A DNA stretch of 64,000 nt, from the IMG/VR virus record IMGVR_UViG_3300042894_008159, positions 60,013-124,012 of that record; one strand, written 5' to 3'. The stretch comes from a virus. This document shows, one piece after another, positions 16,175 to 51,936 of the stretch. A program made the position numbers and the translations under genes. The notes beneath the pieces were generated by a model. That model saw nothing but the letters and a program-made list of their open reading frames with translations. It had not been told where the DNA came from and did not search any database. Within the stretch, counting starts at the first letter, position 1, and each line of letters starts with the position of its first letter.

Positions 16175-16475
16175 CTTCGTAACCTCTGTGATTTAAACCT
16201 TGTTCCAACTGGTTGAAAATGAATTCTGCTTTGGTATAAGTGGAAGGTGCCCAAGCCCACTTGCCGAAATCTTCGTTACCAGGAAAAATTTCTCTTTCTC
16301 CTAACTGTACTCCAAAAACCTCTTTTGGTTGGTCTATTTTTCTTTTAAATACCTCCCAGGCAATTACCTTTTCTGAATCTGAACAGAATTGCTCGTACAG
16401 CATCGCCTTTTCACCCCTTTTAAGAAGTCGATAAATAAAGGTATTCTTTTTGATTTCGTCAGGTAGAAGTTCCAT
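16164..16475 (-). CDS. gp62: Clamp-loader small subunit (gp62-like)
   Basis: This 103-residue protein overlaps the gp44-like ATPase gene by one base (TAATG), exactly the 44-62 order of T4. It starts with a helical stretch (LLPDEIKKNTFIYRLLKRG) and contains a Trp-rich C-terminal portion. T4 gp62 is longer (187 residues), so this is a short version. It would complete the 4:1 gp44:gp62 clamp loader that opens the sliding clamp and places it on primer ends. No gp45 clamp gene is visible in this window. Assignment rests mainly on position and length class, with weak sequence resemblance. Confidence 0.7.
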   Translation of the reverse strand: MELLPDEIKKNTFIYRLLKRGEKAMLYEQFCSDSEKVIAWEVFKRKIDQPKEVFGVQLGEREIFPGNEDFGKWAWAPSTYTKAEFIFNQLEQGLNHRGYEDGE

Positions 16476-17425
16476 TAAGCTTGAATTTGTTTTTGTATTT
16501 TAAACACCAAGGCCAGCAAAGAAACTATGGGATCAATAACCAACATTCGTTGTGCTTGGTGTTCGGCTACCATAACGATAACCGCCGGAATTATTTTAGC
16601 CAGTTCTGGACGATGGTGCTGGACCCAACCAACAAATTCATCACCCAAGGCTAACATGACAGAATCAACTTTACCAGAATATTGTGACACAATGAACTGA
16701 TAATTTTCAATTGGGTTTTTGCCATCACAAATTAAACGGTAAAGTTCTTCGTGTGAATAGGAAGAATCTTTTACTTTTTTGGCATCGATGGTTTGTAGTC
16801 CTTCTATCGACCAAGCTTGAATTTTATTTAAAGCAGATCTTAAATCGGGAAAAAAATCTCTTTCGAAAGCATCTAAAGCATCAGAGTCAATAGAGATAGA
16901 AAGTTTTTCTAAAATCAATCCAATCCTTTTTCTCCACTCTGCTTTCAATTCCTGTTCTTCTTCGGAATTTACTGGATCAAAATTGATCACTTCAAATCGG
17001 GATTGGATAGCCTCTGGTACTTTGGCTATCCAATTACACGTGGCTACAAATCTGGCATTCTTAGCAAATTTTTCGATAGTTCCACGAAGGGCTTTGTAGA
17101 ATTGATCCGATGCTCCATCGAACTCGTCTAGAATAACCACCTTTAAAGCAGATTTTCCATCCATGATACTTAGAGTAGAACAGAAATCGTTGATTTTAGT
17201 TCGAATCACATCTACCGAACTTTCGTCTGAAACGTTGATGAAAAGATGTGGAGAATTGGCGGCTAAAATTTTAGCCAAAGTTGTTTTACCACAGCCAGGT
17301 GATCCAGCCAACAAAACGTTCTGTGCCAATGGTTTGCCGTCAAATAAATTTCGGATTCGATCCGGCAAAATCATATGTTTCAGTTCCCGGGGCCTAAGCT
17401 TTTCAGTCAGTAATTGATTAACCAT
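16475..17425 (-). CDS. gp44: Sliding-clamp loader ATPase (gp44-like)
   Basis: This AAA+ ATPase has 316 residues, close to T4 gp44 (319). Walker A GSPGCGKTT is at residues 41-49, Walker B VVILDEFD at 96-103, sensor 1 near ATCNW, and the SRF arginine-finger motif at 142-144. The C-terminal domain is the helical collar. It assembles with gp62 and loads the clamp during replication; in T4 the clamp also activates late transcription with gp55, whose homologue is at 24210-24569. The ATG at 17425 has one of the few recognisable Shine-Dalgarno sequences in the window (AGAGG, 4 bp upstream). Confidence 0.93.
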   Translation of the reverse strand: MVNQLLTEKLRPRELKHMILPDRIRNLFDGKPLAQNVLLAGSPGCGKTTLAKILAANSPHLFINVSDESSVDVIRTKINDFCSTLSIMDGKSALKVVILDEFDGASDQFYKALRGTIEKFAKNARFVATCNWIAKVPEAIQSRFEVINFDPVNSEEEQELKAEWRKRIGLILEKLSISIDSDALDAFERDFFPDLRSALNKIQAWSIEGLQTIDAKKVKDSSYSHEELYRLICDGKNPIENYQFIVSQYSGKVDSVMLALGDEFVGWVQHHRPELAKIIPAVIVMVAEHQAQRMLVIDPIVSLLALVFKIQKQIQA

Positions 17426-17470: not shown

Positions 17471-18808
17471 TTACTTGAAAAAAGAAGTCATGTCGTCAGC
17501 CTGATTTTTATCGGTTCTAACTTCGATAAAACGGGGAAGAAACAGGCTCCGATTGCCGAATTTGTCTGTAATAGGCTCGTTGAATTGAACAGCTGCCACC
17601 CGGCCAATCCATTGATCTGGATTGGAACTGAGAGTTTTCAAATCGACATCAGTAAATCCAGATCCTATCTTCACATCCAAAGTTCTAGAGGCATCGGTAC
17701 AAATGAAACCCCCGATGAATCCTTCCCTTTTACCTTCTCCGGGATACCATCCGGTGATTTCCAGATCACAATCTTGAACTTGCTTCAATTTGACCCAACT
17801 TTTACTACGTTTACACTCATATACGTGGTGACCTGGTTTAAGAATAACACCCTCTCCACCCAAGGAAATAATTAGTCCATAAATATTTTGGGTTTCTTCC
17901 ATGGAATCTACCACCCACTGTCTGGCAAGTTTAACCTGAGAATTCAGAGACAAAAAGGCAGTTAAGAATTCCAATTCTTTTCTTCTTTGTATGAAAGGCG
18001 TAGTACCGTGTCCAATTTTTAGTACTGAAGCCTTTTCTAAATCGAACACATTGAATATAAATTCCTTGTCAATATCTTGTGGTGCTGTGCCCTTCAGAAT
18101 TTGAGTTACCTTTCCTGACACTGACTTTCTGTTGATGTCGGTTAGTTCACCATCAAAAAATACTTCTCCTACGATGTTAGCATTGTGGAGAATATTGATT
18201 AAATCTCGCTCTATGTAATAAAGTCTACTTTTATCCAACTCGTTGAAGGCTCGGGTGTAAAATTGGAATCCTTTTTCTCTGTCCCCTACAGCAATTACTC
18301 TAACACCGTCGTATTTTTCTTCACAGTAGATCTTTCCCCAGCTGGCAATTTCTTTCTGATCGTCACAAGCTAGCATCACAGAGGGATCTGGTATAAGTTC
18401 TCTACCAATTGCTTTGTTGACCAATTTGGCTCCTATACCTATATTCATTCTTTTGGTGAGGATTTTCATTAGAATTTCCCGAAGTTGTTTGTCTTCGATT
18501 GGATCCTCCGAAATACGGGAATTGATGAGTGATGTGGCTTGACCTCTAAGGTTGTCGTTGGCAGCCGGAGCTGATTTTAAACTTTCCATTAGGGACTTGA
18601 AAACATCGAAACCAGGGAATTCCCCGATAGGGGTTGGGTGTAAATCAAGCTTGTGTAACTTGGTCGTTACAAAGGGATTGAAACACACGTCCAAAAGGTA
18701 TGACATCACCTCGGTAAGGTTCTCTGAGAGCAATCTTTGCTTCTCTTTTTGTGACCCGTTTCCAGTTAAAGATTCGAGTGTCGATAGGATTTTTAGTTCG
18801 TTTATCAT
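17471..18808 (-). CDS. gp30: ATP-dependent DNA ligase (gp30-like)
   Basis: The 445-residue protein carries the nucleotidyltransferase motif I EEKYDGVRV near residues 160-168, with the Lys forming the AMP adduct. Downstream are FFDGELTD (motif III type), GGEGVILK (motif IV) and SWVKLKQ (motif V). A C-terminal OB-fold follows. Length is close to T4 ligase (487). It seals nicks after RNase H processing of Okazaki fragments, using ATP. The gene starts the DNA-replication run, 41 bp after the heptose kinase and 45 bp before gp44. Confidence 0.93.
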   Translation of the reverse strand: MINELKILSTLESLTGNGSQKEKQRLLSENLTEVMSYLLDVCFNPFVTTKLHKLDLHPTPIGEFPGFDVFKSLMESLKSAPAANDNLRGQATSLINSRISEDPIEDKQLREILMKILTKRMNIGIGAKLVNKAIGRELIPDPSVMLACDDQKEIASWGKIYCEEKYDGVRVIAVGDREKGFQFYTRAFNELDKSRLYYIERDLINILHNANIVGEVFFDGELTDINRKSVSGKVTQILKGTAPQDIDKEFIFNVFDLEKASVLKIGHGTTPFIQRRKELEFLTAFLSLNSQVKLARQWVVDSMEETQNIYGLIISLGGEGVILKPGHHVYECKRSKSWVKLKQVQDCDLEITGWYPGEGKREGFIGGFICTDASRTLDVKIGSGFTDVDLKTLSSNPDQWIGRVAAVQFNEPITDKFGNRSLFLPRFIEVRTDKNQADDMTSFFK

Positions 18809-18849: not shown

Positions 18850-19848
18850 TCAGGAAAAAATTGGATTTTTTTCGAATAATTCTTCTAATTCTCCAGGGTC
18901 AACTGGGACTGCTCCAGAATGTCTACACACTAAAGATCCTGCCAGATTAGCCAGTTCTGCTATTCGGATCAAATTCGACTTGGATACAAAATCGTATGTG
19001 CAAGAAAAAAACCCTAAGCTGAAAACTGAACTAACCGTGTCCCCCGCTCCAGAAACATCTGAAACATCTACATTTATACCAGGCACATGATGAGAAAAGT
19101 GTCTCCCCACCAACAACATTCCTTTTTCTGATAAAGTAATTAGGAAATATTTATAGTCGAATTCTTCCATCACCAGTTGAGCATAATTTACGATCTGACT
19201 AATTTCTAAATCTTGTTCAGGTTTAATATTCACCATAGCCTTGAACTCATTCAAATTTGGCTTGATAAGATCTGTTCCTTGATATCTACCAAGATCAGGT
19301 TCCTTAGGATCTACCAAAATTTCTTTCGAGTATTTCTTTGATATTTCAATCAAAGAAGTTAATATGAAATCTGTAAATAATCCCTTTCCGTAATCTTGAA
19401 AAATCACACCGTCATGCAATTGAACTTGTTTTTCAAATTCCTCAATGATTCTCAAACTAGAATCATATGATAAATCATGTGTTTGTTCAACGTCGATTCT
19501 GACAATTTGATGTTTATTTCCTATAATCCTGGTTTTTTTCGTTGTTGGTCTATCTTGCTCGTGGACGAAAATCGGATCTATATTTTTTTCGTTACATTTT
19601 TTCAACAACATTTTTCCATCTTCGTCATCTCCTACCAAAGTCAATAAAGTGCACTTGGCTCCGAAGGCTGTAATATTCTGAGCGACATTTGCTGCTCCAC
19701 CTAGAAAAAATTGCTCTTTGCTTTTCAGAACAACTGGAACTGGTGCTTCCGGGGATATTCTATGAACCTTTCCATAAACATAGTGGTCCAAAATAGAATC
19801 ACCAACAACCAATATTTTTTTAGATAAAAATAATTCCCTAAAATTCAT
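18850..19848 (-). CDS. rfaE: D-glycero-beta-D-manno-heptose-7-phosphate kinase (RfaE/HldE kinase domain)
   Basis: The 332-residue PfkB-family sugar kinase matches the N-terminal domain of HldE: VGDSILDHYVYG (16-26), the hallmark RISPEAPVPVV (30-40), GGAANVAQN (about 51-59), the substrate loop with PKEPDLGRYQG, TLSEKG, and the catalytic DVSGAGDT near residues 265-272. The cytidylyl/adenylyltransferase domain of bifunctional HldE is absent, so it would act with host enzymes. It phosphorylates heptose-7-phosphate at C1 en route to ADP-heptose, the donor used by heptosyltransferases. It lies between the portal and ligase genes, an odd place for a sugar gene, and pairs functionally with the TibC-like gene at 46003-47184. 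Confidence 0.9.
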   Translation of the reverse strand: MNFRELFLSKKILVVGDSILDHYVYGKVHRISPEAPVPVVLKSKEQFFLGGAANVAQNITAFGAKCTLLTLVGDDEDGKMLLKKCNEKNIDPIFVHEQDRPTTKKTRIIGNKHQIVRIDVEQTHDLSYDSSLRIIEEFEKQVQLHDGVIFQDYGKGLFTDFILTSLIEISKKYSKEILVDPKEPDLGRYQGTDLIKPNLNEFKAMVNIKPEQDLEISQIVNYAQLVMEEFDYKYFLITLSEKGMLLVGRHFSHHVPGINVDVSDVSGAGDTVSSVFSLGFFSCTYDFVSKSNLIRIAELANLAGSLVCRHSGAVPVDPGELEELFEKNPIFS

Positions 19849-19858
19849 TCAGTTAAAT

Positions 19859-21466
19859 TTAAAGCGTAAAATCCGGTGCTCCCCCTTCTCCACCTCCTCC
19901 TTCTTCTCCCTTGTCCTTTTTATCCTTGTCTGCCTGTTTTTTTTCATCATCTTTGTACTTTTGATTGGAACGATATTCGTCCATGCTCAGACCTAGCCAT
20001 CTTTTGATAAGCCATTCCTTATCGAAATAAGGAACTTCTTCTTCCCCAATCTTCTGTTTCATATCACCCAAGGCGGTAATAAAAGCTGTTCTTTTTGTAT
20101 AATTAGAAAGTACAATCAATTGCTCAAAAACATTTTCTTTCACAAAATCCAACCCCAAATTAACTTTGAAAGACCGGTCTTCAGACAAAGCCGGAAAATC
20201 CAAACAGGTTTGTATGTATAAAGGTTTTACCAAAAGTTCTTGAAAAACAGACCTCAAACGGGTAACGAATTTTTCATATCTAATTTCATCTCTTTCTAAC
20301 TGATCGATAGAAATCTGGTAAGTCACAGGACCACTCCTCGAAGCAAATCTAGCATATGGAATTTTGGAGTCTAACTTCAGCTTGTTGTAAAAGTACACAA
20401 CGTTTTCCATGACGTTGAAATCGGGTCCAGCAGGATTTAATGTGTTGATGTCCGGAGATTCTCCGTCTTTTTCAGGGAATAAATAATTTTTGTAAAACTG
20501 AACTTTGGGAGCTCCATTTACGGTTAATTCCCCGGAAGTATCGTTGATTTGAATTTCTTCTTTATACTGAGACATTAATTGTCCCAGTGTTTGCATTGCT
20601 TTTTGTCCTGATTGTGTTCCAACTGGAATAACAAATTTCAAACGGTATGAAGCGTTCATCACATTCCAAATAACTCTTGTGTTCTCCATCACCCTTAAAA
20701 TGTTATACGATCTAATAAGTCTTTCCGTATAACTTACTCTAGAAACTGAGTTACCCTTGGCATAGGAAAGATAAATTACTTGCTCTGCCTTTAATTTTCG
20801 GGTCATTCTAGGATCACCTGGATATTGAATCCAAATTTGTTGAAATTCTTTGTTAGGTTGTTGTTCTGTGGCTGGTTGTAAAGAAGTAGCATCTAATTCT
20901 TTAAATCCAACAATTTTCTTGCCGTCTGTAGAGTAAACAATTTCAAAAGCCAAAAACCCATCAATCAAAAATTGACGGAAATATTGCCAGGCCAAAATGC
21001 TTTGTTGAAAACCAAAAAGCATGTATAAAGTTCTGAAATTTTCTTCCACCTTAGCTCGCACCTCGGGCTTTAGATCTACATTCAATAACGAAGGATATCC
21101 AAAGAAATTTTTATCGTCATAATTTATGGCATCGTCCGAAAGGGTATCTAGGATAAAATCAATTTCTCCATTTAATGCAAATTTTCGTAGAAACTCTCTT
21201 TTGCCTAAATAGTCCTTGTCGAAATAAGCGATGTATTTTCTTACTCTGGTGTCTTGATAACCCAATGTCCAAAAGAAAGCATCATTCTCAGTAAATCCTG
21301 TTCCTTGATTATTGAAAAAAGTAGATTCAGTTGCTCCTATAGCCTGCGAATTTCTGATGACCATATCCTCATACTGCATTCCAAACCTTCCAATTCTGGA
21401 CAGATTTCGATACAAATTTCCTAAGAAAGAACGCTGTTGGCTGTTATCGTCGTTAAATCCTGCCAT
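19859..21466 (-). CDS. gp20: Portal vertex protein, second copy (gp20-like)
   Basis: This 535-residue protein is close in length to T4 gp20 (524). It shares with its upstream neighbour the blocks NSQAIGATE, YFDKDYLGKREFLRKF, FGFQQSILAWQYFRQFL, GFKELDATSLQP, VIYLSYAKGNSVSRVSY, and the DPARSVFQE-type clip/stem region RLRSVFQELLVKPL. Portal subunits form the dodecameric ring that drives prohead assembly and holds the packaging motor. The C-terminal tail is a Lys/Asp then Gly/Glu-rich low-complexity stretch. It starts 2 bp after the other portal gene, clearly an in-tandem duplication that has diverged substantially. Confidence 0.9.
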   Translation of the reverse strand: MAGFNDDNSQQRSFLGNLYRNLSRIGRFGMQYEDMVIRNSQAIGATESTFFNNQGTGFTENDAFFWTLGYQDTRVRKYIAYFDKDYLGKREFLRKFALNGEIDFILDTLSDDAINYDDKNFFGYPSLLNVDLKPEVRAKVEENFRTLYMLFGFQQSILAWQYFRQFLIDGFLAFEIVYSTDGKKIVGFKELDATSLQPATEQQPNKEFQQIWIQYPGDPRMTRKLKAEQVIYLSYAKGNSVSRVSYTERLIRSYNILRVMENTRVIWNVMNASYRLKFVIPVGTQSGQKAMQTLGQLMSQYKEEIQINDTSGELTVNGAPKVQFYKNYLFPEKDGESPDINTLNPAGPDFNVMENVVYFYNKLKLDSKIPYARFASRSGPVTYQISIDQLERDEIRYEKFVTRLRSVFQELLVKPLYIQTCLDFPALSEDRSFKVNLGLDFVKENVFEQLIVLSNYTKRTAFITALGDMKQKIGEEEVPYFDKEWLIKRWLGLSMDEYRSNQKYKDDEKKQADKDKKDKGEEGGGGEGGAPDFTL

Positions 21467-21468
21467 AA

Positions 21469-23094
21469 TTATGTTGGTGTTTCTGTTTCAGGCGGGGCTG
21501 CTCCTGGTTCTGGCCCTTCAGGAGGAGCACCGCCTTCTTCTCCCCCTTCTCCCTCAGGTGAATTTTTTTCTTTTTTCTTTTTTGCCTTCTCTTTCGCTTC
21601 TTCATTAGCCTTGATATCATCCTCGGTCATTCCAAGAAAATTTTCAATCAAAAATCCTAAAGAAAAGAAAGGTTGACCTTCTTCATCCACTAATTGGTAC
21701 ATAGAGTCGATGGATTCTTTTCTTTTGCTCATCGTTTCTATCTCCTGGTTAACACGAAACGGATTATCTGAAACAAAAGTTAAACCAAGCTGACTTCTGA
21801 ACATATAATCCTTCTCCAATTGGGGAAAATCACGACACAATTGAATCCATAGAGGTTTTATGAGAATATCTTGAAAAACAGATCTCAATCTCATAATGAA
21901 CTTCGAAAATCTAATTTCTTCTTTGTCTAATCCTTCTGCTGCATTGGCATATTTACCTGTTGATCCGCCATCAGGCCCTTGAAATCTAGAAAATGGTATT
22001 TTAGATTCTTGAACCAACTTGTCAAAAAAGTAAGCCAAAGGAGCTGGATCATTCAAATTTGGTCCAGCAGTATTTAAAGGTTCAATATTAGGAGTACCCA
22101 AAGCACCTTTGGGCATAAGATAATTTTTGTAGAACTGAATTTTTGGTTGTCCGTTTACTGAAAGTTCACCGCTTTCGTCGTTGAATTGAATATCTTCTTT
22201 ATAGATAGACATTAACTCTCCGAGTGTTTGCATAGCCTTTTGTTGTGATCTGGAGCCTACCGGAACTGTCATTTTAAGACGGAAAGATGCATTCATCACA
22301 GACCAAATAACACGAGTGTATTCTATGATCCTCAGAACATTATATGGACGAATTAACCTTTCAGTATAACTTACCCTTGAAACAGAATTACCCTTTGCGT
22401 AAGAAAGATAAATGATCTGAGAATCATACAGCATTCTTCTTTTTCTTTCGTCCTTAGGATATTGATACCAAACATTCAAGAATGTTCCATCTTTCTGCTT
22501 TTCTACAGAGGGCATTAACGTGGTAGCATCCAATTCTTTAAATCCGATAATATTTTTTCCTTTGTCATCATACACAATTTCGAAAGCTACAAAACCATCA
22601 ACCAAAAGCTGCCTGAAGTACTGCCAGGCAGAAATATCATCATTGAATCCAAACATGTCGTACAATTTTTTGTACGTTGAATCAATTTTATCTATTACAT
22701 CTTGTTTAAGCCCGGTTATATTAAGGAATGCTGGATAAGCGAAAAAGTTATAACCATCATAAGAAATAGACTCGTCGCAAACAGTATCCAGAATATATTC
22801 AATTTCCGGGTTTAAAGAAAATTTTCTCAAGTAATCTCTTTTTCCTGCATAGTCTTTATCAAAATAGGAAATGTATTGTCTGGTTGTCGTATCTTGTCTT
22901 CCTAAGGAGAAAAAAGTTGTTTCATCTTCTATAGGTCCCTTCTTTAAAAATTCTGCTTCAGTAGCACCAATGGCTTGGGAATTTTTAACCACCATGTCAC
23001 CATACCGCAATCCGAAATTACTCAGATTTTTGATGGATTCCCTTATTCTTTGGAATATGGGATTGGTATTTGGATTCTCGTTAAATCCTGCCAT
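21469..23094 (-). CDS. gp20: Portal vertex protein, first copy (gp20-like)
   Basis: This 541-residue paralogue of the 19859-21466 product keeps every conserved block in the same order (NSQAIGATE, YFDKDYAGKRDYLRKF, WQYFRQLLVDGFVAFEIVY, GFKELDATTLMP, IYLSYAKGNSVSRVSYTERL, RLRSVFQDILIKPL). Both copies are full-length and lack stops or frame breaks, so both are likely functional. The tail differs: this copy ends in a Pro/Gly/Glu-rich stretch. A promoter-like GATATATAG is 56 bp upstream, inside the 3' end of the preceding gene. The ring could be mixed, or each copy could serve a different stage. Confidence 0.92.
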   Translation of the reverse strand: MAGFNENPNTNPIFQRIRESIKNLSNFGLRYGDMVVKNSQAIGATEAEFLKKGPIEDETTFFSLGRQDTTTRQYISYFDKDYAGKRDYLRKFSLNPEIEYILDTVCDESISYDGYNFFAYPAFLNITGLKQDVIDKIDSTYKKLYDMFGFNDDISAWQYFRQLLVDGFVAFEIVYDDKGKNIIGFKELDATTLMPSVEKQKDGTFLNVWYQYPKDERKRRMLYDSQIIYLSYAKGNSVSRVSYTERLIRPYNVLRIIEYTRVIWSVMNASFRLKMTVPVGSRSQQKAMQTLGELMSIYKEDIQFNDESGELSVNGQPKIQFYKNYLMPKGALGTPNIEPLNTAGPNLNDPAPLAYFFDKLVQESKIPFSRFQGPDGGSTGKYANAAEGLDKEEIRFSKFIMRLRSVFQDILIKPLWIQLCRDFPQLEKDYMFRSQLGLTFVSDNPFRVNQEIETMSKRKESIDSMYQLVDEEGQPFFSLGFLIENFLGMTEDDIKANEEAKEKAKKKKEKNSPEGEGGEEGGAPPEGPEPGAAPPETETPT

Positions 23095-24798: not shown

Positions 24799-27462
24799 GT
24801 TTTTTTTTGACTCCTCGCTTTCGTCGATATTGTAACCCATTTCAGGATTGGACTTATAACCTATCCTTCCCTCGGAGCCCTTAGAGGGAGCTACCGCGAA
24901 ATTTGGATCAGTTTTCATTACCTGTGGACTATGTGCTTTACCCTTGATAGTTTTTACCCCATATCCAGCATCTCCTTCGGATTTACCTGGGGCAACTGCC
25001 AAATTTTGATTTGTTTTTTCGAGCTCTGTTTTTTCATCCACATTATAACCCATCTCATCATCTACTTTGTAGTGGAGCTCTTTCCCTTTTTCACTTCCTG
25101 GAGCAGAAGCAAAATTAGGATCTGTTTTCATGACCTGAGGGTTTTTAGATTTGTATCGAATTCCCTTGACTTCATAATCTGCATCGCCTTCTTCAGAACC
25201 AGGAGTTTCTGAAAGCTTCATAAGTTTAACATCAGATTTGCTGAAACGTGTGTCTTCCGACAAATTATACCCAGCACCTTTAGTTGCCTTGTATTTGGTG
25301 TGTGTTTCTTTTCCTTCTGGTGCCTCCTCTAAATTAGCATCTTTCAAATTCTCTACATCTTTTTGTCCACCTTTGTTATTGTCTTTTCCTTTAGGTGCAG
25401 CTTCTGTATTTTTTCTCATCGTGTTGCCTGGAGTTGCATCTTTCTTTTCCTTTGCAGATTTACCGGGAGCTGTAGCCAATTGCTGAGAAGCTTCTTTCAA
25501 TTCCTCTTGTGTTTCTGCCTCGACTTCATTTTCATCACCTGCAGTGGATAATGCATCGTCCAGATTGATAATTTCATCGATTTTAAAATCTCCGGTCCTA
25601 CCGTTGTCCATCAATACCGTATAAGAACCGGATGTAGAATCAATAGAAATAATTTTACCTGTGTTTCCAGATTCCAAAACCTTAACATATTCTCCGACGT
25701 TAAATTTATCATCCTCGTACACTTCCTCAAAAGACAAAGGTTCATTTTCAATTTTTTGAAGCTCTGTGTTCACTGCTGACCACTTTTTGCGCAAAGAGGA
25801 AAGTTCTCTTTCCAATAAATTCTGAGCCCTTTGAAGTTCAGGTGAATTTGCAAACAAAGGATTTAAACCCATTTGCGATTCAACTTTTTGAAGCTGTCCT
25901 TCTAGAACTGTAATATTTTCCATCAACCTCTTTCTGTCGTTTAGCATGATAGATTTGATTCTAGATTCACCATCCAAAAATTCAGTTAAACCCTCTGAAA
26001 TATCATATTTCAAGAATTCTCTTACCATGTTTGTTGCCTGTGTTCCATTAACTTCAAAAACAGAATTATCTGACATAGATTCGTTAATTCTGTTAAGGAA
26101 TATTTTATTTTCCCATTTAATGAGGTTTACTGAAGCACCTTCATAAACTTTGGATTCAATTCTTTTTGCAAAATCAAGTTCAACAATCGAAAGGAAGTTC
26201 TCATACAAATTCAAAATGTCATAAACAATTTTGTTTTCGTTCATACCCAAAGATCCGGAAATTTCTAATCCAATTGCCTTTGAAAGGTTCACTTTATCTT
26301 GGAATTTCATTGATTTTCCGTTGAATAGAATTGATACGCTTTCTCCTTCTTCAATTAAAGAAAATTTGTGTTTACCAACAAAAACATTTAAACCATTCTC
26401 ATCGACCTTTACATATGGAGCATAAAAAGATTCTAAAACTGAAATGAAATTTTTTGGGAGAACAGCTACCTGCCCACGATTTAGTTTCTTCAATCCTTGG
26501 CTTGATCCTTCAAAAACATTTGACCCAATGGTGAAAATGGTTTTACCTCCTTCTACAAGAACAGGAGAGAAAACTCTACGGACTGAAGAATTACCAGCAT
26601 GGATCGGAATATTTAGCTTGGAAGAATCTTGTTCCATCAGGGAAAGATTGTTCAACAAGTTTCTAACAATAGGATTAAATTGCCATCTTGAAATATCTTT
26701 TGTTAGAAGAGATATTGATTTATTTTCAGACACCAGCCACTTGTTCAGGGATTCGGTTACAGGAGAATAAAAATCAGAACCTGCATTACTTGAAATGGTA
26801 TACAAAGCTTTAGAAACTTCGATTTCAGGTCTGAGATCCGTTAGCTTTTCGCTTAATGATTCTGTTATTTCTTGTACTCTTTCATCCCAATCAAAATTTT
26901 TCATTTCTTGAAGAAATCCTTCTGCTACCAGGAATTCTGGCATATTTTTGCTTTTCAGCAAATGATAATATTTTTCACAAATAATTTTGATGGAAGGATG
27001 TTCGAAAATACCAGAATTCCGAATTGTATTAATTCCTTCAAAAACACCCAGATTATTTACTTCTTCTGACTTCATAAAAGCTTCTACACCTTTGTCCTGC
27101 GAAGCAAGAGCAGACAAATTCTCATTCAAGCTAGTATAGTCCACTTTTGATGTTTGTTCTTTTTCACTCTCTACATAGCTTCCTGAGTTTTTGGATAGAC
27201 CATTCCCAACACCACCCCATGATTCCATCAATCTATTTGCGGCGTTTTTGGATCTAGTCAATTCCTGTTCTCTCATAAGTTGAAAGGGATCTTGCGATGG
27301 TGTATCAACACGTTCGAAATTTTGGATGGACTCCATGATCGAATCGGAATTGATATTAGGGTCTCCTTTTTCTATCTTTTGAATGTTTGATTCACAGATA
27401 GCTTTAACTTCTGGAGAAGTAGTTGTATTTCTTAGGGTTTTGAGTTTATTCAGTAAATCCAT
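24796..27462 (-). CDS. Large virion-associated protein with KOW-like domain and acidic C-terminal repeats
   Basis: This 888-residue protein is not assigned to a family. Residues 1-600 are mainly helical and include VDYTSLNENLS near residue 115, another possible L-x-E protease site, and a coiled coil near 530-590. About residues 610-665 look like a KOW/SH3 barrel (NVGEYVKVLESGNTGKIISI, then YTVLMDNGRTGDFKIDEI). The last ~220 residues are disordered, charged repeats built from MGYN-(V/I)-DE, QVMKTDPNFA and AP-(G/S)-K elements. The start is an ATG with an A-rich leader, 23 bp after a promoter-like box. The repeats appear to continue in the -1 frame past the stop. A head-core or decoration function is possible. 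Confidence 0.65.
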   Translation of the reverse strand: MDLLNKLKTLRNTTTSPEVKAICESNIQKIEKGDPNINSDSIMESIQNFERVDTPSQDPFQLMREQELTRSKNAANRLMESWGGVGNGLSKNSGSYVESEKEQTSKVDYTSLNENLSALASQDKGVEAFMKSEEVNNLGVFEGINTIRNSGIFEHPSIKIICEKYYHLLKSKNMPEFLVAEGFLQEMKNFDWDERVQEITESLSEKLTDLRPEIEVSKALYTISSNAGSDFYSPVTESLNKWLVSENKSISLLTKDISRWQFNPIVRNLLNNLSLMEQDSSKLNIPIHAGNSSVRRVFSPVLVEGGKTIFTIGSNVFEGSSQGLKKLNRGQVAVLPKNFISVLESFYAPYVKVDENGLNVFVGKHKFSLIEEGESVSILFNGKSMKFQDKVNLSKAIGLEISGSLGMNENKIVYDILNLYENFLSIVELDFAKRIESKVYEGASVNLIKWENKIFLNRINESMSDNSVFEVNGTQATNMVREFLKYDISEGLTEFLDGESRIKSIMLNDRKRLMENITVLEGQLQKVESQMGLNPLFANSPELQRAQNLLERELSSLRKKWSAVNTELQKIENEPLSFEEVYEDDKFNVGEYVKVLESGNTGKIISIDSTSGSYTVLMDNGRTGDFKIDEIINLDDALSTAGDENEVEAETQEELKEASQQLATAPGKSAKEKKDATPGNTMRKNTEAAPKGKDNNKGGQKDVENLKDANLEEAPEGKETHTKYKATKGAGYNLSEDTRFSKSDVKLMKLSETPGSEEGDADYEVKGIRYKSKNPQVMKTDPNFASAPGSEKGKELHYKVDDEMGYNVDEKTELEKTNQNLAVAPGKSEGDAGYGVKTIKGKAHSPQVMKTDPNFAVAPSKGSEGRIGYKSNPEMGYNIDESEESKKN

Positions 27463-35927: not shown

Positions 35928-36509
35928 TTATAGGAATTGATCCTGCCAGTAATCAGATTTCCACGTGGTATCAAGTATGTAAAGGGCATCCCCTGAATCA
36001 TAACTCAATGCCATAGTTGTTAGTGGTTCAACCAAAAAACAATTGTTCAAAGTTAATCTTCTGAATACATCTCCTTGTTTGTTGAAAATTGAAACAACAA
36101 TTTGACCAGTATAGTCTCTCTTTAATCCCATGGCACCGGTTAAAGGATTGTAAATCAAATCTGACCATTGTCTCATAATTTTAAATATGGTCATGGAATT
36201 GTTTTCGTTCAAATTCACCTCGAAAGCAATTGAAAATTGAACGTCTGAAGTGGAAGGTTCGCCGCCTGCATATCTTCTTTCTGCAAATTTATAATACTGA
36301 GTTACTGGAGCTGCAGGTTGGATGTCAACTGCCAGAGATCCAGTTACGCTTTTGACCTGTTGTGTCATAATAGATTCTCCATTGAACCTGACATTACCCA
36401 GAGTCACTCCTGCAGGAGGGGTAACCAGAACTTCGAATTGATTAAGGAAAACAGGCTCGAAATTATTTCGAGCTGCTAGAGAATTATTAAAATGAGGTAA
36501 ACCTGCCAT
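35928..36509 (-). CDS. gp19: Tail tube protein, second copy (gp19-like)
   Basis: This 193-residue protein is of T4 gp19 type (163 residues). It shares the MAGLPH(F/Y)xNSL start, NQFEV, IYNPLTGAMG, DYTGQIVVSIFNKQGDVFRR and the C-terminal TTWKSDYWQDQF block with its neighbour. Tube subunits stack in hexameric rings inside the sheath and form the DNA channel. It starts 17 bp after the first copy. Both copies are full length and open. It may form a different tube layer, a tail-end cap, or a gp54-like baseplate tube starter. Confidence 0.9.
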   Translation of the reverse strand: MAGLPHFNNSLAARNNFEPVFLNQFEVLVTPPAGVTLGNVRFNGESIMTQQVKSVTGSLAVDIQPAAPVTQYYKFAERRYAGGEPSTSDVQFSIAFEVNLNENNSMTIFKIMRQWSDLIYNPLTGAMGLKRDYTGQIVVSIFNKQGDVFRRLTLNNCFLVEPLTTMALSYDSGDALYILDTTWKSDYWQDQFL

Positions 36510-36525: not shown

Positions 36526-37080
36526 TTAGGTGAAAAGATCATCCCAATAATCAACCGCCCATGTCATGGTGATTTCATACAGGGTAGTTCCGTTGATATA
36601 ATCTAACTCCATCGGGTCAATAGCTTTCATAGGAAAACAGTCGCGACACGTAATTCTCCTGAAAACGTCTCCGTTTTTATTGAAAATAGAAATAATGATC
36701 GTGCCAGTATAATCCGTTTTAATTCCCATAGCTCCAGTCAATGGATTGTAAATTAAATCAGTCCATTGTCTAAGAGTTTTAAACGTGTACATAGAATTGT
36801 CGTCATTTAAATTCACAGTAAATTTCACGCTCAAATCCAAACTTGTTTTATCTGGCTTACCACCCGCATAGTTTCTTTTGGAAAACTTGTATTTCTGAAA
36901 CACAAAAGATGGATTTTTATCAACGTCCATGCCGTTGACGTTTACGACCTGTTGTAACAAAATTTGACCACCCAGAACAGCTGCTGGGGGAATCACAGTT
37001 ACCTCAAATTGGTTGAGATAAACTGGCTCGTATTTGTTGATCGAATACAATGAATTTTGGTAGTGTGGTAAACCGGCCAT
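36526..37080 (-). CDS. gp19: Tail tube protein, first copy (gp19-like)
   Basis: This is the 184-residue paralogue of the 35928 product, with MAGLPHYQNSL, NQFEVTVIPP, IYNPLTGAMG, DYTGTIIISIFNKNGDVFRR and TMTWAVDYWDDLF. It directly follows the sheath gene (53-bp gap), as gp19 follows gp18 in T4. The gap holds a GATAAATA box, very close to the T4 late promoter. It is likely the main tube subunit, by its position next to the sheath and its own promoter. Confidence 0.92.
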   Translation of the reverse strand: MAGLPHYQNSLYSINKYEPVYLNQFEVTVIPPAAVLGGQILLQQVVNVNGMDVDKNPSFVFQKYKFSKRNYAGGKPDKTSLDLSVKFTVNLNDDNSMYTFKTLRQWTDLIYNPLTGAMGIKTDYTGTIIISIFNKNGDVFRRITCRDCFPMKAIDPMELDYINGTTLYEITMTWAVDYWDDLFT

Positions 37081-46002: not shown

Positions 46003-47184
46003 CTACAAACCTTGCTCTTGTATAAGTAAATTAATTTGTTCAATCACAAGTTGTGGACTCAGCTTTGTGGTACACTCAAACATTCTTTCTGTATTTTTCA
46101 ATCTAGGACACCAGTTCCAATCTCCACGATCAAACTTATATTTTACGTCGTTGAAACACCCGTGACACACATTTCTATTGATAACCCTATAATTCATTCT
46201 CGAAAATTCACAGGATGGATCGGAAAACCCAGAAATCATAACCACTGGTTTTTGCAAAAACCACGCTAGCCAGGAAAGTCCAGAACCAATGCCGATAAAA
46301 AAATCTGCTTGATAGATATCGGCCATTCTTTGTAAAATATCTCGGTCCCCGGTTTTATCTACCACACTCTCTAAAGTGTTGTTTTGTTTGTGAATGACCC
46401 GAACTTCATAACCAAGTATTCGAAGGTAATCCACTATTGTCTGCCATCCCTTTTCGTAGTGCCAGTGTTTGGCATTGGCTGTAGACTCTGTAGCCAAACA
46501 AACATATTTTCCGGATTCTCTTGGAGGCAAGCTATACAACCAATTAGGAAGTTGTGGAGGAAGTAAATCAGTTTTAACATCTATCCCCAGGATATCTCCT
46601 GCCACCTGTTGTAAAGAAATAGATCTAGGATCTCTGCGATGACAATTTCTATCTTCCTCTTCGTACCAGCCAACACCAAAAACTGCCTTAGCGGAATGAT
46701 CCCTGTATCCGGGTGGGAAAAATTTAAGTTGTGGAAAAAATTGCGTTAGTAAAGAATTCCAAAAGGTAGTAACAATAACATCTGCCTGATATTTATTCCG
46801 TAAAGCCTCTACCACCGGAACCCAGGCCAAAGTATCTCCTAATGAAGAGGAATCAATAGAAACCAAAATTTTCTGTTTGTGAAGAGAAGACTCAAAGTCA
46901 AAACTCCAGATTTCTTTGGTTCCTTCGTAAACCTCTACTCGCCATGGGGTAAACCATCTTCTGAAAACCGACGTAAATAATCCAGGACTGGTTTCTGTCT
47001 CGAAAACATAATGATTGGTGTTTAGATCTTTGTATTTTATGGTTCTTTTAGTTTTTGGATTATTTCCAACCATATCAACTTTGGGGCCATAATCAAAACT
47101 AAATTTGAAATCAAAAGTGTCTTTGACCCTACACCTAAGGTCTTTTACCACATTTTTATAAACATCTATACCTTTATTTTTCAT
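46003..47184 (-). CDS. TibC/Aah-type protein O-heptosyltransferase (GT9 fold)
   Basis: The 393-residue GT-B enzyme carries the heptosyltransferase block KILVSIDSSSLGDTLAWVP and the KHWHYEKGWQTIVDYLRILGY segment, then a donor-site region (FFIGIGSGLSWLAWFL). Near the C-terminus, Cys-340, Cys-343, Cys-359 and Cys-371 (pattern CHGCF...WNWCPR...FEC) match the iron-binding cysteine motif of bacterial autotransporter heptosyltransferases, which transfer heptose from ADP-heptose to Ser residues. T4 has no such gene. It overlaps the GT4 gene by 4 bp. A partner heptose kinase is at 18850-19848. The likely substrates are the Ser/Thr-rich fibres in the same genome. Confidence 0.82.
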   Translation of the reverse strand: MKNKGIDVYKNVVKDLRCRVKDTFDFKFSFDYGPKVDMVGNNPKTKRTIKYKDLNTNHYVFETETSPGLFTSVFRRWFTPWRVEVYEGTKEIWSFDFESSLHKQKILVSIDSSSLGDTLAWVPVVEALRNKYQADVIVTTFWNSLLTQFFPQLKFFPPGYRDHSAKAVFGVGWYEEEDRNCHRRDPRSISLQQVAGDILGIDVKTDLLPPQLPNWLYSLPPRESGKYVCLATESTANAKHWHYEKGWQTIVDYLRILGYEVRVIHKQNNTLESVVDKTGDRDILQRMADIYQADFFIGIGSGLSWLAWFLQKPVVMISGFSDPSCEFSRMNYRVINRNVCHGCFNDVKYKFDRGDWNWCPRLKNTERMFECTTKLSPQLVIEQINLLIQEQGL

Positions 47185-48242
47185 GAATTAAAACCTAAAA
47201 TTTCTTGAATGAGACGAGTGTTGTAAGCTTTTCCTGATTTTTCAACATCTGAGGAAAAATAATGAACTAGAGGATTGTTATCATAATCATCCATATACGA
47301 AGGCAATCTTCTCATCATGATAGGGAGTTTCCATGATAAAGATTCTTTTATTACAATGGGATTCAACTCCCAGACTGAATTGAAAACAAACAAATCAGCA
47401 GCTTGAAAAAATAAATCAGTATCGGATCTTTCCCCCCAAACTCTACAATTTTCTGGCACATTTTGAAGGATTGGCTCCCAGTATTCCTGAAAGTTACAGG
47501 CGAGATTTCCCACGAAATGAAACTCTATCGGAAGATGTGTCATCTCTCTGGCGAATTCAATTAATTCTCCTTGGTTTTTTCCTTGTGTGAAAAGACCAAC
47601 GTTGATAACATGTTTTTTGTCAGGGTCTAAACCCAATAAATTTATAGCTTTTTCTTTCCCAATACTTTCGAAATTTTCAATTGGATATTCCAACAAGTCC
47701 AAATTAAAACCAGAATTTTCGAAAACTTTTAACATCCATTTGTTGACCATCACGATTTTATCTGGACACCAAAATTTATCAGATGGTTTGTTGTTTGAAG
47801 AATGGCAGGTCTCAAAGATAAACCAGGGTCTATTTGGAACATAAATTTTCTCACACATCTCGTTACCAAGGAAAAATTCCACAAAATCTTGAAAATGAAT
47901 AACGTCAGGACACACCCGATGAATAATTTCTAGGAATTCACTCTTGTCTTCCGAGTCCAATCTGAAGTAATTTTCTCCCAAAAGGTTTTGAATTCTTTCT
48001 CTCTGAACTGTGAATTGATCGGAAAGATTGTTATATTCAACACAGAATATTTCGGAAAAAGGCAACAGGCACTCAATACATTTATAAAGGTACTGAGGCA
48101 TCCCTCCGGTGGAGAGATGAGGAGCAACGAAAAGGATCCTGGGTTTGTTACCTGAAATTTCTGAAATAGATTGTTCTACGTCGTATAAAGTTTGAGTTAA
48201 ATTGTATTTTAATTTTCTAAGAGAAAAGGAAGGATCTAACAT
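47181..48242 (-). CDS. GT4-family glycosyltransferase
   Basis: The 353-residue GT-B enzyme contains LFVAPHLSTGGMPQYLYKCI near the N-terminus, a donor domain around VINVGLFTQGKNQGELIEFA, and the ADLFVFNSVWELNPIVIKES segment (a variant of the E-x7-E motif). It would transfer a nucleotide-activated sugar onto an acceptor. It overlaps the TibC-like gene by 4 bp, so the two are co-translated and probably work on one glycan. It could extend the heptose or build a second glycan. The N-terminal ~35 residues are an extra helical region. Confidence 0.82.
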   Translation of the reverse strand: MLDPSFSLRKLKYNLTQTLYDVEQSISEISGNKPRILFVAPHLSTGGMPQYLYKCIECLLPFSEIFCVEYNNLSDQFTVQRERIQNLLGENYFRLDSEDKSEFLEIIHRVCPDVIHFQDFVEFFLGNEMCEKIYVPNRPWFIFETCHSSNNKPSDKFWCPDKIVMVNKWMLKVFENSGFNLDLLEYPIENFESIGKEKAINLLGLDPDKKHVINVGLFTQGKNQGELIEFAREMTHLPIEFHFVGNLACNFQEYWEPILQNVPENCRVWGERSDTDLFFQAADLFVFNSVWELNPIVIKESLSWKLPIMMRRLPSYMDDYDNNPLVHYFSSDVEKSGKAYNTRLIQEILGFNS

Positions 48243-48315
48243 TTAATTTTTAATTAGAATTCTGTTATTATGAATTAATAAATAAACATTTTTATTGTTT
48301 CAAACTTTTTAGTTT

Positions 48316-48489
48316 TTACTCCAATTCTATGTTATTTTCATTTTCAGCTATATGCAAATTGTAATTATCAAGATTAATTCTATAAATTGTAAAATTGTCT
48401 CTTGGATATATTTCAACAATAGTACCATACAAAGGAACGTCACCTAATGTTTTTACTCTATCCCCTATTTCAAATTTGTATGTGATCAT
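48316..48489 (-). CDS. Small beta-barrel-like protein (57 residues)
   Basis: A complete ORF starts at ATG 48489 and ends at TAA 48316. The protein reads as alternating strands beginning MITYKFEIGDRVKTLGDVPL, with GTIVEIY, TIYRINLD and an acidic tail, the pattern of a small SH3/KOW-like barrel. It begins 4 bp after the adhesin stop codon at 48494, so it is likely co-translated with it. The gap from 48243 to 48315 holds nothing I can support. The function is unknown. Confidence 0.6.
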   Translation of the reverse strand: MITYKFEIGDRVKTLGDVPLYGTIVEIYPRDNFTIYRINLDNYNLHIAENENNIELE

Positions 48490-48493
48490 TGTT

Positions 48494-49735
48494 TTATGCT
48501 ATATTGAATTGTGTTTTCAGAATATTATAGTTTGATAATACTTCGGCGTCAGTCAGAGTTCTATCGTAAATGTGTATTGAATACAAATTACTTTCACCAA
48601 TATAACCATCAAAACAAGAACCGGGGCCTCTACCCGTCATTAAATTACTATTAGCACCACTTGGTGTCGGATTAACAACCAAACCATTCTTTGTTGGTGA
48701 TTGTAGAACACCATTGATATATGCTTTGGCATTATTTGTACCCGATTTACAACTTGCAACAATATAAAGGTCTTGATTAATCCAGTTTGCTGATGTTAAT
48801 GTAAAACCAACACCACCACCAACACCATCAAAAAAATCAAGAGCAATATTTGGTGCAACGTTTACATTATTTGAAGTATTATACATATAAAAACTAAACT
48901 TCCTGTTCGCACCCGAACAAAAATCCAAATTAATAAGTGCTGACCATCTGAAACCAGTGTTTCCGTGTGGAATACTTATTTGTCTTAAGAATACACAAAC
49001 TGTTATTTCACTCGCACTACGTACTAAAGAAGCTCCAAGACCCCAATCGATGTATGGCGAAGATGATATGGCGTTATTAAATTGTAATGATTTTGTTGAT
49101 CCACCAACATAAGAAACATTTTCAGAGTTAATTATTGTTCCTGTATACCCATTTGGTGATAAATCAAATACACTTGTTCCTGTTCCTGGATAACTTGAAC
49201 TATTGGACATATTGGTATAAAGAACCAAACCTGTTTGATTTATATCTTGGCTTGGAATTGTTGGTGTATTTGTTGGTGTTGGGGTTGGGGTTGAAGTTGA
49301 CGTAACAGTAGGTGTAGGGGTTAAAGTTGGAGTCATGCTTGGTGTTGGTGTATTCGAGGGTGCAATTGACCCTTCAAATGATGTCCAGTAACCATTATTG
49401 TTCAACCAAATTTTGGCCTGTGCTCCTTGATTGGGTGCCCAAGAATCCGCTCCTGCAGCTAAGGTGTTTGCCAAATCAACGAAAGAAGACTCTGTTAATT
49501 CAGAGGATCTGAAAAAGCCAACAGAGGCAAATACTCCTTCTATCGGAGTTGGTTGACTGTTGTCTGGAACAGATTGTGCAACTACATAACCCAGCTGCTC
49601 GTCAGGACCATTCCACCAAGCAAGTCCAGTAGAAGAGAACCCTTCTGTAGGAAATCCAATAGCCAGATTGCCAATCTGTTCGGTACCTGCTATAGGAGAT
49701 CCTGTGTTATATGCAAACGGTCTGGAAATTGACAT
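48494..49735 (-). CDS. LamG-type adhesin with Thr/Pro linker
   Basis: The 413-residue protein has three parts: an N-terminal ~125-residue domain, a Thr/Pro/Ser linker (residues ~130-170, TPTPT and TSTSTPT runs) and a C-terminal laminin-G/concanavalin-like fold of ~230 residues (YPGTGTSVFDLSPNGYTGT, ending YDRTLTDAEVLSNYN). LamG-3-type domains bind sugars. The protein is probably a virion surface adhesin; the Thr-rich linker is a plausible O-glycosylation target. The GATATATAA box ends 5 bp before its ATG. Confidence 0.78.
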   Translation of the reverse strand: MSISRPFAYNTGSPIAGTEQIGNLAIGFPTEGFSSTGLAWWNGPDEQLGYVVAQSVPDNSQPTPIEGVFASVGFFRSSELTESSFVDLANTLAAGADSWAPNQGAQAKIWLNNNGYWTSFEGSIAPSNTPTPSMTPTLTPTPTVTSTSTPTPTPTNTPTIPSQDINQTGLVLYTNMSNSSSYPGTGTSVFDLSPNGYTGTIINSENVSYVGGSTKSLQFNNAISSSPYIDWGLGASLVRSASEITVCVFLRQISIPHGNTGFRWSALINLDFCSGANRKFSFYMYNTSNNVNVAPNIALDFFDGVGGGVGFTLTSANWINQDLYIVASCKSGTNNAKAYINGVLQSPTKNGLVVNPTPSGANSNLMTGRGPGSCFDGYIGESNLYSIHIYDRTLTDAEVLSNYNILKTQFNIA

Positions 49736-49739
49736 TATT

Positions 49740-49748
49740 TTATATATC
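49740..49748 (-). promoter_or_regulatory. GATATATAA late-promoter-like motif near the adhesin ATG
   Basis: An exact core copy ends only 5 bp before the ATG at 49735, so a transcript from it would be nearly leaderless. It could instead be accidental. Confidence 0.4.
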
Positions 49749-49779
49749 CACCAATCAAGATCTAATTGTCATTTGCAAT

Positions 49780-50052
49780 TTAAGAAACTGTATAAACTCC
49801 AGAATTAAAATCTAACTTTCCTTCACCATATTTTGCGACAATTTCATCCACGAGCTGTTTTTCGTTTTCGTTTAATTGTAGTGTTTCTTGGTAAAGGTTT
49901 TGAATTTGTTCACCGACCGTGGTTACCTCTCTTTCAAGAAAGAATTTTTGGGCATTGAGTTGACCTATCTGCTGAATGTTATTTCGAGCTGCCTCCCTTA
50001 AATTTTGAATCCTATCCAATTCTTCAGGGGTAAGTTTAATTTGATTTTCCAT
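49780..50052 (-). CDS. Small coiled-coil protein, paralogue of 51299-51580
   Basis: The ATG at 50052 is preferred (90 residues), since it follows an A-rich leader (AAAAAATAAAA), rather than the upstream start at 50082. The protein is a helical pair: IKLTPEELDRIQNLREAARN, a long helix, then VDEIVAKYGEGKLDFNSGVY. The 51299 product shares PEEL-x-x-IQ-x-x-R near the start and the KYG-x-x-x-(L/D)-(D/F)-x-x-(T/S)G end. The prefoldin-like hairpin suggests an assembly chaperone or adaptor. The function is unknown. Confidence 0.6.
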   Translation of the reverse strand: MENQIKLTPEELDRIQNLREAARNNIQQIGQLNAQKFFLEREVTTVGEQIQNLYQETLQLNENEKQLVDEIVAKYGEGKLDFNSGVYTVS

Positions 50053-50144
50053 TTTTATTTTTTTGTACTCCTGTTTCATCAAAATATTCCAATCCTATCC
50101 TTTGGAATTTTTTATAATTTTCCTGTACAATCTGAAATTCAAGA

Positions 50145-51302
50145 ATGAAACCTAAAATTTTAAGTTTGGTCCCAGATAGGCTTGAAAAACCTATGGGAGG
50201 ACTAGGAATTCAATACACACATATACATCCTTATTTACAAGAGAATTTTGAGGTATTCACTGTTTGTTATCCACACCTTACCCCACAATTTTCATTTCCT
50301 AATACTAAACAAATTTACCCGTCATTTTTACCAGACCCAAAAGAACCAGGAAATCCTCTAATTTATAATCTGGCACACCAAATTAATTATTTCACAGCTT
50401 CTTTAAAATTTCAACGACCTGATTTGATTCACGCCTACGATTGGCCATGCTACTTGGTAGCTAACCATCTGGCCATTTATTATGGGGTTCCTTTGGTGAT
50501 GTCTTTGAGCTTAAGTATAAGAGGTCAAATCCAAAAAAATTTAAAAATTGTTTTTGATGACAAAAATTTCGATGGATTAACCACACAAAAAACTTTGGAG
50601 GGTTTGGAAACGGGGATGTTAAATTGTGCAGATATTATTGTTGGTGTCGGAAGTTTTTACAAAGACGTATATCCAGAATTTCGTTCGAAAATCAGAATTA
50701 TTCCAAATGGAATCAATTTAGATTCTTGGATACCTAAGAGCCAAGTTTCAATACCTTTGGACAATGGTATAAATGTTCTATACATCGGAAGATTTGCCAA
50801 AATGAAAGGGTTTGATCATTTGATGAATGCAAATATTCCGGATGGGATTAATTTAATTGTGGCTGGATCATCTGAGGGAGGAGATTTAGAATGTGTAAAT
50901 CTGCTTCAAGCTAAATTAGATTCGAAAAAAAAGAATTTATTTTTCTGTGGTCCTTTATATGGACAGAAAAAAATTGAACTCATGCACTCTGTAGAAGCAG
51001 TAATCATGCCCAGCGTTCATGAACCATTTGGCATTGTAGCTTTAGAAGCTTTTGCTTCCGGTGCCATATTGATTTCATCTCGTTTAGATGGTTTGGGTGA
51101 TTTTGTAAACGAAAGAAATTCAATGTTGGTAGAACCAACTCCAGAAGGAATTGAAAAATCCCTTGAAAATTTATTGAAATTGAAAGAAGAAGAAAAGTTG
51201 AAATTAAAAATAGAAGGTAGAAAAACCTGTGAGATCTTTACATGGAAAAATGCTGGAGAAAAAATGACAGAAGTCTACAATGAACTTCTAAAATCTCGTT
51301 AA
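50145..51302 (+). CDS. GT4-family glycosyltransferase (only plus-strand gene)
   Basis: This 385-residue GT-B enzyme has the MGGLGIQYTH acceptor-loop motif, VLYIGRFAKMKGFDHLMNA and the E-x7-E donor motif in HEPFGIVALEAFASG (about residues 294-303). It resembles glycogen-synthase-type GT4/GT5 enzymes. It is the sole plus-strand gene in the window, set between two paralogous small coiled-coil genes, and overlaps the downstream one by 4 bp tail to tail. This orientation and position suggest a later insertion (moron). It may join the glycan pathway of the neighbouring genes. Confidence 0.85.
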   Translation: MKPKILSLVPDRLEKPMGGLGIQYTHIHPYLQENFEVFTVCYPHLTPQFSFPNTKQIYPSFLPDPKEPGNPLIYNLAHQINYFTASLKFQRPDLIHAYDWPCYLVANHLAIYYGVPLVMSLSLSIRGQIQKNLKIVFDDKNFDGLTTQKTLEGLETGMLNCADIIVGVGSFYKDVYPEFRSKIRIIPNGINLDSWIPKSQVSIPLDNGINVLYIGRFAKMKGFDHLMNANIPDGINLIVAGSSEGGDLECVNLLQAKLDSKKKNLFFCGPLYGQKKIELMHSVEAVIMPSVHEPFGIVALEAFASGAILISSRLDGLGDFVNERNSMLVEPTPEGIEKSLENLLKLKEEEKLKLKIEGRKTCEIFTWKNAGEKMTEVYNELLKSR

Positions 51303-51580
51303 TTTATAGGAGTTAAAATACCAGTTTCTAGGTCTAAACTGACGTTCCCATATTTATATTCCATGAGAGACATAAAATTTTTTTCTTCCTCTTTAAATTT
51401 CAAAAATTTTCTTTCAGTCTCTTTTTTCCTTTCTTGGAGATTAATTTCTTCCATCTTAAGAGAACCGAATTCAACCAAGAACATATCACCAGATTTCCTG
51501 AATTCCTGAATTTTCTTTAATTCTTCTGGCTGTATCATATCTGAATATTCTTCTTTTCCTGTTTCTTCTATATTATTCAT
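51299..51580 (-). CDS. Small coiled-coil protein, paralogue of 49780-50052
   Basis: This 93-residue protein starts MNNIEETGKEEYSDMIQPEE, followed by a charged helix and the ending MEYKYGNVSLDLETGILTP. The PEEL-x-x-IQ and KYGN-x-x-x-D-x-x-TG motifs match its paralogue. It overlaps the 51577-51885 gene by 4 bp. The C-terminal motif (KYGNVSLDLETG) is common in small helical proteins of T4-like and Bacteroidota phages. A role as an adaptor for fibre or tail assembly is a guess. Confidence 0.6.
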   Translation of the reverse strand: MNNIEETGKEEYSDMIQPEELKKIQEFRKSGDMFLVEFGSLKMEEINLQERKKETERKFLKFKEEEKNFMSLMEYKYGNVSLDLETGILTPIN

Positions 51581-51885
51581 GTGCGAGAAAATGTTGCTTG
51601 TGAATTAATCGAATTTGCGGATTGTAGTTCTGGAATAACAAAAGTTTCTATTGCCTGAATGAGGCTGTTATAAGAATCCGAAATTGAAATATCATAATTC
51701 AACTTGCTGCGATCTACGTTTGAAAAAACTACAGTATCTCTGTGAATTCCATCTTCAGAGACAACATGAAGATCAACGTGCAAATTTCCTTGGAAAGACA
51801 AATGGGCTACGATCTTCAAAAGAGGAGACTCGTGGATTAATTGCGAGGTTGGATTTTTGAATAAACCTGTAATCTGAATGGCCAT
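51577..51885 (-). CDS. Uncharacterised 102-residue protein
   Basis: This is a beta-rich small protein (MAIQITGLFKNPTSQLIHES, then LHVDLHVVSEDGIHRDTVVF) followed by a helix. No family is recognised. The promoter-like box GATATATATAAA lies 17 bp before its ATG. It overlaps the next gene by 4 bp, so this gene and the coiled-coil protein share an operon. It could be a small virion or baseplate protein. Confidence 0.55.
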   Translation of the reverse strand: MAIQITGLFKNPTSQLIHESPLLKIVAHLSFQGNLHVDLHVVSEDGIHRDTVVFSNVDRSKLNYDISISDSYNSLIQAIETFVIPELQSANSINSQATFSRT

Positions 51886-51901
51886 AGATTTCTATTAATT
51901 T

Positions 51902-51912
51902 TTATATATATC
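51902..51912 (-). promoter_or_regulatory. GATATATATAA late-promoter-like motif
   Basis: It lies 17 bp upstream of the ATG at 51885, in the 51-bp gap after the GT-A gene. Confidence 0.55.
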
Positions 51913-51936
51913 TTTGGAAATTAACCCATAAATAAA

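Follow-up and report, generated by a model that had tools for sequence, protein, structure and literature searches.

A phage-borne heptose kinase is described here, which probably raises the amount of ADP-D,D-heptose available to a TibC-like glycosyltransferase of the same phage; we set the probability of this reading as a whole at about 0.6. The gene was found in a stretch of 64,000 nucleotides (hereafter the window), which corresponds to positions 60013-124012 of the IMG/VR virus record IMGVR_UViG_3300042894_008159, a linear record of 124,012 bases. Its open reading frame (ORF) covers exactly positions 18850-19848 of the window on the minus strand, starts with ATG and encodes 332 residues with no internal stop. 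Computational support was obtained for the intactness of the gene, the kinase family, selection, the conserved slot of the gene and the TibC-family partner.

The encoded protein is very probably a heptose kinase of the HldA type. The TIGR02198 model (heptose-7-phosphate kinase) matches it with an E value of 7e-93 and 311 bits over model positions 5-313 of 315, PfkB (PF00294) matches with an E value of 1e-34 and 120 bits, above the cut-off of 25.8, and the best PDB match is HldA of Burkholderia cenocepacia (4e84, E 9e-49). HldA shares the fold and motifs of the window kinase at 34% identity over 306 residues, although it is a bacterial enzyme and the window kinase is borne by a phage without linked pathway genes. 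Since the TIGR02198 score is lower than the curated NCBIfam cut-off of 345 bits, which is a naming threshold (equivalog), the label HldA-type is used and the NCBI equivalog name is not claimed. An earlier, sequence-only reading of this DNA had matched the protein to the RfaE/HldE kinase domain by the motifs RISPEAPVPVV and DVSGAGDT and had seen no nucleotidyltransferase domain; both motifs are indeed in the translation, and the 332 residues contain no such domain. DVSGAGDT, residues 264-271 with the catalytic GAGD motif, is invariant across relatives. When 59 columns invariant in 22 bacterial heptose kinases (fused to or adjoining genes of other heptose-pathway enzymes) were inspected, 57 were kept by the window kinase versus 28 by E. 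coli ribokinase, and Arg30, Glu34, Lys105, Arg107, Arg117, Asp119, Tyr153 and Lys155 are all present in the former and missing in the latter. The AlphaFold model (predicted local distance difference test, pLDDT, 83) aligns to HldA with a Z score of 39.8 at 2.1 A over 306 residues, and to the best ribokinase with Z 32.6; a BFVD fold search gave no useful match. Identity as a ribokinase, fructokinase or other PfkB enzyme was rejected on residues, fold and tree.

That tree comprised 49 kinases, the bacterial ones picked by a short-motif scan and hence not an exhaustive sample. The window kinase belongs to a phage clade (support 100/99) nested within a heptose-kinase group (99/98) that also holds Cloacimonadota kinases encoded beside a nucleotidyltransferase as well as lone kinases of Bacteroidota, Chlorobiota and Ignavibacteriota. 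The ribokinase, with which placement had been named by the sequence-only reading as the outcome that would speak against it, fell far outside, and the window kinase stayed among the heptose kinases. A topology joining the phage kinases to the operon kinases of Sphingobacteriaceae was rejected (p-AU, approximately unbiased test, 4e-5). A joint clade of phage kinases and lone Bacteroidota kinases agrees with the data (p-AU 0.38) but is not proven by them.

Among cellular proteins the best-scoring relatives (37-42% identity) are lone kinases of the HldA type from Bacteroidales, Lentimicrobiaceae and further Bacteroidota, which like the window kinase are unfused to a nucleotidyltransferase and fall in the same sub-cut-off score band; they differ from it in being chromosomal and in lying next to genes for an aminotransferase and outer-membrane proteins, and their genomes have gmhA and the nucleotidyltransferase at other places. 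The nearest by score, from Bacteroidales, reach 317-319 bits on TIGR02198, also under the cut-off, and operon kinases reach 359-432. Among 15 bacterial genomes scanned, 14 encode an above-cut-off nucleotidyltransferase and 14 have a strong gmhA match (191-214 bits); for the 12 of them with lone kinases near the phage clade both counts are 11. The low score is thus a trait of the lone-kinase lineage, because these relatives score equally low and yet their genomes carry nucleotidyltransferase and gmhA. The best explanation is that the phage kinase derives from a Bacteroidota-like heptose pathway, with one gene for the kinase and another for the nucleotidyltransferase. The kinase domain of E. coli HldE is homologous to it but fused to a nucleotidyltransferase; a truncated HldE that has lost this half is not favoured, since the nearest relatives are naturally stand-alone and have the nucleotidyltransferase as a separate gene. 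The missing half is the ordinary split arrangement of Bacteroidota, and no special truncation is involved.

The proposed partner is a gene whose product matches TibC with an E value of 5e-54. The structural study of TibC named the catalytic Asp-110, Thr-226, Lys-230 and Arg-286, the iron-finger cysteines 339, 342, 358 and 370, and a residue of stereoselectivity, which is Pro-300 in TibC and Ser-294 in AAH (PMC4358343). The catalytic Asp, the three donor contacts and 4 of 4 cysteines are conserved in the phage protein, which on these residues is a real relative of TibC of enterotoxigenic E. coli; it differs from the latter by Gly at the position of Pro-300 and by having no autotransporter acceptor known in the phage. 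TibC accepts ADP-D,D-heptose as donor but refuses ADP-L,D-heptose (PMC4358343); a phage enzyme with the same preference would have no need of hldD. The TibC-like gene and two further glycosyltransferase genes form a cluster at 46003-52590, adjoining an ORF of 2845 residues that is possibly a fibre and a hypothetical acceptor of the sugar, to judge only by its size and position. Proteins of 720-1160 residues in other phages are fusions of the TibC-like domain with a group-1 glycosyltransferase domain (contigs L224:3999-6461, L232:3996-6167 and L257:2646-6038, and Microcystis phage Mel-JY01, L033:3397-7077); for one of them, from an isolate phage, the annotation reads only methyltransferase FkbM.

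We propose that the kinase would be an acquired metabolic gene, raising ADP-D,D-heptose for the glycosyltransferase of the phage itself. During infection the host would give GmhA, GmhB and the nucleotidyltransferase, the phage kinase would form the 1,7-bisphosphate, and host GmhB and nucleotidyltransferase would finish ADP-D,D-heptose, so that its pool rises. The most likely consumer would be the TibC-like enzyme, which would place heptose on a phage or host surface protein; both the in vivo substrate and the acceptor we infer. The share of the host follows from a search that the sequence-only reading had suggested for the complete genome and that was run on the 124-kb record, a fragment: nucleotidyltransferase, gmhA, hldD and gmhB-type phosphatase were found neither there nor in eight related contigs, all of them fragments, and therefore must be supplied by the host. 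In a control on cyanophage S-CAM1, nucleotidyltransferase and epimerase were recovered and the short gmhA was missed by the PF13580 search, thus a divergent isomerase could be overlooked.

The kinase gene occupies a defined slot (Table 1). In the order of transcription, two portal-like genes are followed by the kinase, which starts 10 bp behind the portal stop codon, and then by the DNA ligase, 41 bp behind the kinase. The gene had been described as lying between portal and ligase genes, which is correct, and inside the replication region, which has to be revised to the border of virion/portal and replication genes. Both tandem portal-like genes (75-97% identity) are kept in nearly all relatives, and one portal gene is normal for phages. 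A T4-type late promoter, TATAAATA, ahead of the kinase was rejected, as its 2 matches in the window are no more than expected by chance, and promoter and terminator scans gave shuffle-level results.

Table 1. Genes of the window at the kinase slot and in the glycosyltransferase cluster.
Feature	Position	Strand	Basis
HldA-type kinase	18850-19848	-	TIGR02198, PfkB, PDB match, residues, model, tree
Portal protein, second of two tandem portal-like genes	19859-21466	-	phrog_213, E 6e-57
Portal-like protein, first of the tandem pair	21469-23094	-	survey of related contigs
ATP-dependent DNA ligase	17471-18808	-	profile match
AAA ATPase, clamp-loader-like, conserved next gene	16475-17425	-	profile match and context
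TibC-like (BAHT family) heptosyltransferase, putative ADP-heptose user	46003-47184	-	match and conserved residues
Glycosyltransferase group 1, 4-bp overlap with TibC-like gene	47181-48242	-	–
Glycosyltransferase family 4, same cluster	50145-51302	+	–
2845-residue ORF near glycosyltransferase cluster	52609-61146	-	ORF list

At least 20 further virus contigs carry close relatives of the kinase. The slot between the second portal gene and the ligase was surveyed in 80 contigs found with the portal protein: it contains a full-length kinase in 36 and a short kinase of 256 residues in 13, is empty in 24 and unreadable in 7. Its state changes at least five times on the portal tree, so the slot behaves like an accessory site. 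With 38-42% identity to cyanophage kinases and about 28% to that of the window, the short kinases are by sequence a second heptose-kinase-type gene filling the same slot; this cyanophage-type gene lies at 1658-2428 of contig L166 and in the same slot of L167-L178, at two separate points of the portal tree. Among full-length kinases, six comparisons gave ratios of nonsynonymous to synonymous substitution (dN/dS) of 0.08-0.18; some dS values are near saturation, and two pairs with dS of about 0.2 give 0.18 and 0.10. The kinase gene is under purifying selection. An assembly chimera at the kinase was rejected, because the arrangement recurs in many contigs of different metagenomes and because in contig L133 the ligase reappears past an insertion. 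This insertion of about 7 kb (L133:12719-19676, also L009:7101-11980) brings eight genes between kinase and ligase; in one product, of 658 residues, a cohesin domain is combined with a C-terminal sorting domain of type IX secretion (E 4e-8), and several others start with signal-peptide-like stretches.

Do kinase and transferase go together? All 16 kinase-bearing contigs that reach the position of the TibC-like gene carry it (12 with the full-length and 4 with the short kinase), and the 6 that lack it break off short of the place, about 27 kb away, where it would be expected. This co-occurrence has little statistical weight within the clade of the window phage, since the transferase is in all contigs reaching that position. 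Kinase and transferase are found together again in LR756501 (735 kb, Mahaphage clade), whose HldA-type kinase and TibC-like transferase are 39% and 40% identical to those of the window; this kinase has a different place in the genome and belongs to a different branch of the tree. LR756501 gave no gmhA or nucleotidyltransferase match and encodes epimerase-like proteins under the hldD cut-off. A kinase unaccompanied by the other pathway genes is thus found in two phage lineages, whose kinases sit apart in the tree. Taken as the 735-kb phage of the published survey, LR756501 is reported to be complete and circularised and is predicted to infect Bacteroidetes (PMC7162821).

Several points weigh against the kinase serving the TibC-like enzyme. 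A distance of 27 kb separates the genes. Two relatives of the window phage have a TibC-like gene and no kinase, and among 23 further phage records with such a gene only LR756501 gave a kinase match, the other 22 giving none. The transferase can therefore do without a kinase of the phage; where the kinase has been acquired, it may improve donor supply. The kinase score lies below the naming cut-off, the proline that sets stereoselectivity in TibC is replaced, and no other pathway enzyme is in the 124-kb record, though this is a fragment. Limitation of the pathway at the kinase step and the host are matters of inference. Of the donor-plus-transfer pair put forward by the sequence-only reading, the TibC-like partner has proved real; that the kinase feeds it, or raises ADP-heptose at all, is plausible on indirect grounds, given the other enzymes absent from the record and the TibC-like genes common without a kinase.

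A less probable purpose of the same activity on heptose 7-phosphate is a change of the host envelope, i.e., of lipopolysaccharide (LPS), capsule or other surface glycans, unrelated to the TibC-like gene and serving, for example, receptor alteration or the exclusion of other phages. Cyanophages carry a heptose kinase with gmhA, nucleotidyltransferase and hldD, which the authors read as LPS genes (PMC7378029), and the frequent TibC-like genes of kinase-less phages show that the two genes are separable; against this stands their joint presence in every kinase-bearing window-clade contig that is long enough and again in LR756501. It is rather improbable that the heptose name is wrong, with a PfkB-family kinase turned to another sugar phosphate or to a nucleoside, e.g., for DNA modification. 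PfkB kinases have widely varied substrates, and the sub-cut-off score would fit, as would the replication genes on one side of the kinase, among them one for a guanylate-kinase-like protein, but the conserved heptose-kinase columns include ones missing in ribokinase, HldA leads the structural matches by 7 Z units, and the tree places the protein within the heptose kinases. The least probable explanation, to which we give very little credence, is that the position behind the portal is a cargo slot and the kinase gene a passenger there, maintained by chance or through some weak, unrelated benefit. In its favour, the slot is empty in 24 relatives, holds another kinase subfamily in 13, has changed state repeatedly and in one relative holds about 7 kb of extra genes behind the kinase; against it, the low dN/dS and the refilling of this position by a second gene of heptose-kinase type speak for a function that has been retained.

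The record is that of a T4-like myovirus, as seen from its genes for portal, gp23-like capsid protein, terminase and neck. Its portal is closest to those of huge phages (45% identity to LR756500 of 462 kb, 34-37% to phages of 635-735 kb), so the genome from which the record comes is probably larger. Sorting domains of type IX secretion are a signature of Bacteroidota. Together with the relatives of the kinase and the Bacteroidetes hosts predicted for related huge phages (PMC7162821), the sorting domain in L133 points to a Bacteroidota host, which is not proven; no tRNA that could serve as a host clue was found in the window. The same record encodes an asparagine-synthase-like protein with a glutamine amidotransferase domain (L025:17166-18602, record 57166-58602) and, within the virion gene block on the opposite strand, a PhoH-like gene (L024:4820-5521, record 24820-25521). 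Just after the sheath-like gene of the window, the adjacent ORFs 35928-36509 and 36526-37080 have closely similar starts (MAGLPHFNNSLAARNNFEP.. and MAGLPHYQNSLYSINKYEP..) and are possibly duplicated tail-tube genes.

Heptose kinases of cyanophages have been annotated and published (PMC7378029), so a phage heptose kinase is already known, and what is added here is another phage group and another kinase subfamily. The heptose-kinase-type genes of S-CAM1, S-CAM3, P-SSM2 and SynMITS9220M01 belong to a short divergent subfamily of about 260 residues, 25-28% identical to the window kinase, and that of S-CAM1 adjoins gmhA, nucleotidyltransferase and hldD, unlike the window kinase. To our knowledge, the heptose kinases so far described from phages come mainly from marine cyanophages. 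The present data show a full-length, Bacteroidota-related type fixed in a conserved slot of other large phages, where the cyanophage type refills the slot in relatives. A narrow literature search found no report of a phage-encoded TibC-family enzyme together with the kinase. It is a tentative thought, and on balance an unlikely one, that large phages, probably of Bacteroidota, heptosylate their own virion by a TibC-family transferase encoded near a fibre-like gene and an acquired kinase that raises the donor. As far as we know, protein heptosylation has so far been described for bacterial autotransporter adhesins. With the kinase tied to a phage-encoded member of the TibC family, it becomes testable whether these phages heptosylate a protein and, if so, which protein this is. 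If they do, protein heptosylation would extend from autotransporter adhesins to phages, in a phage-directed form.
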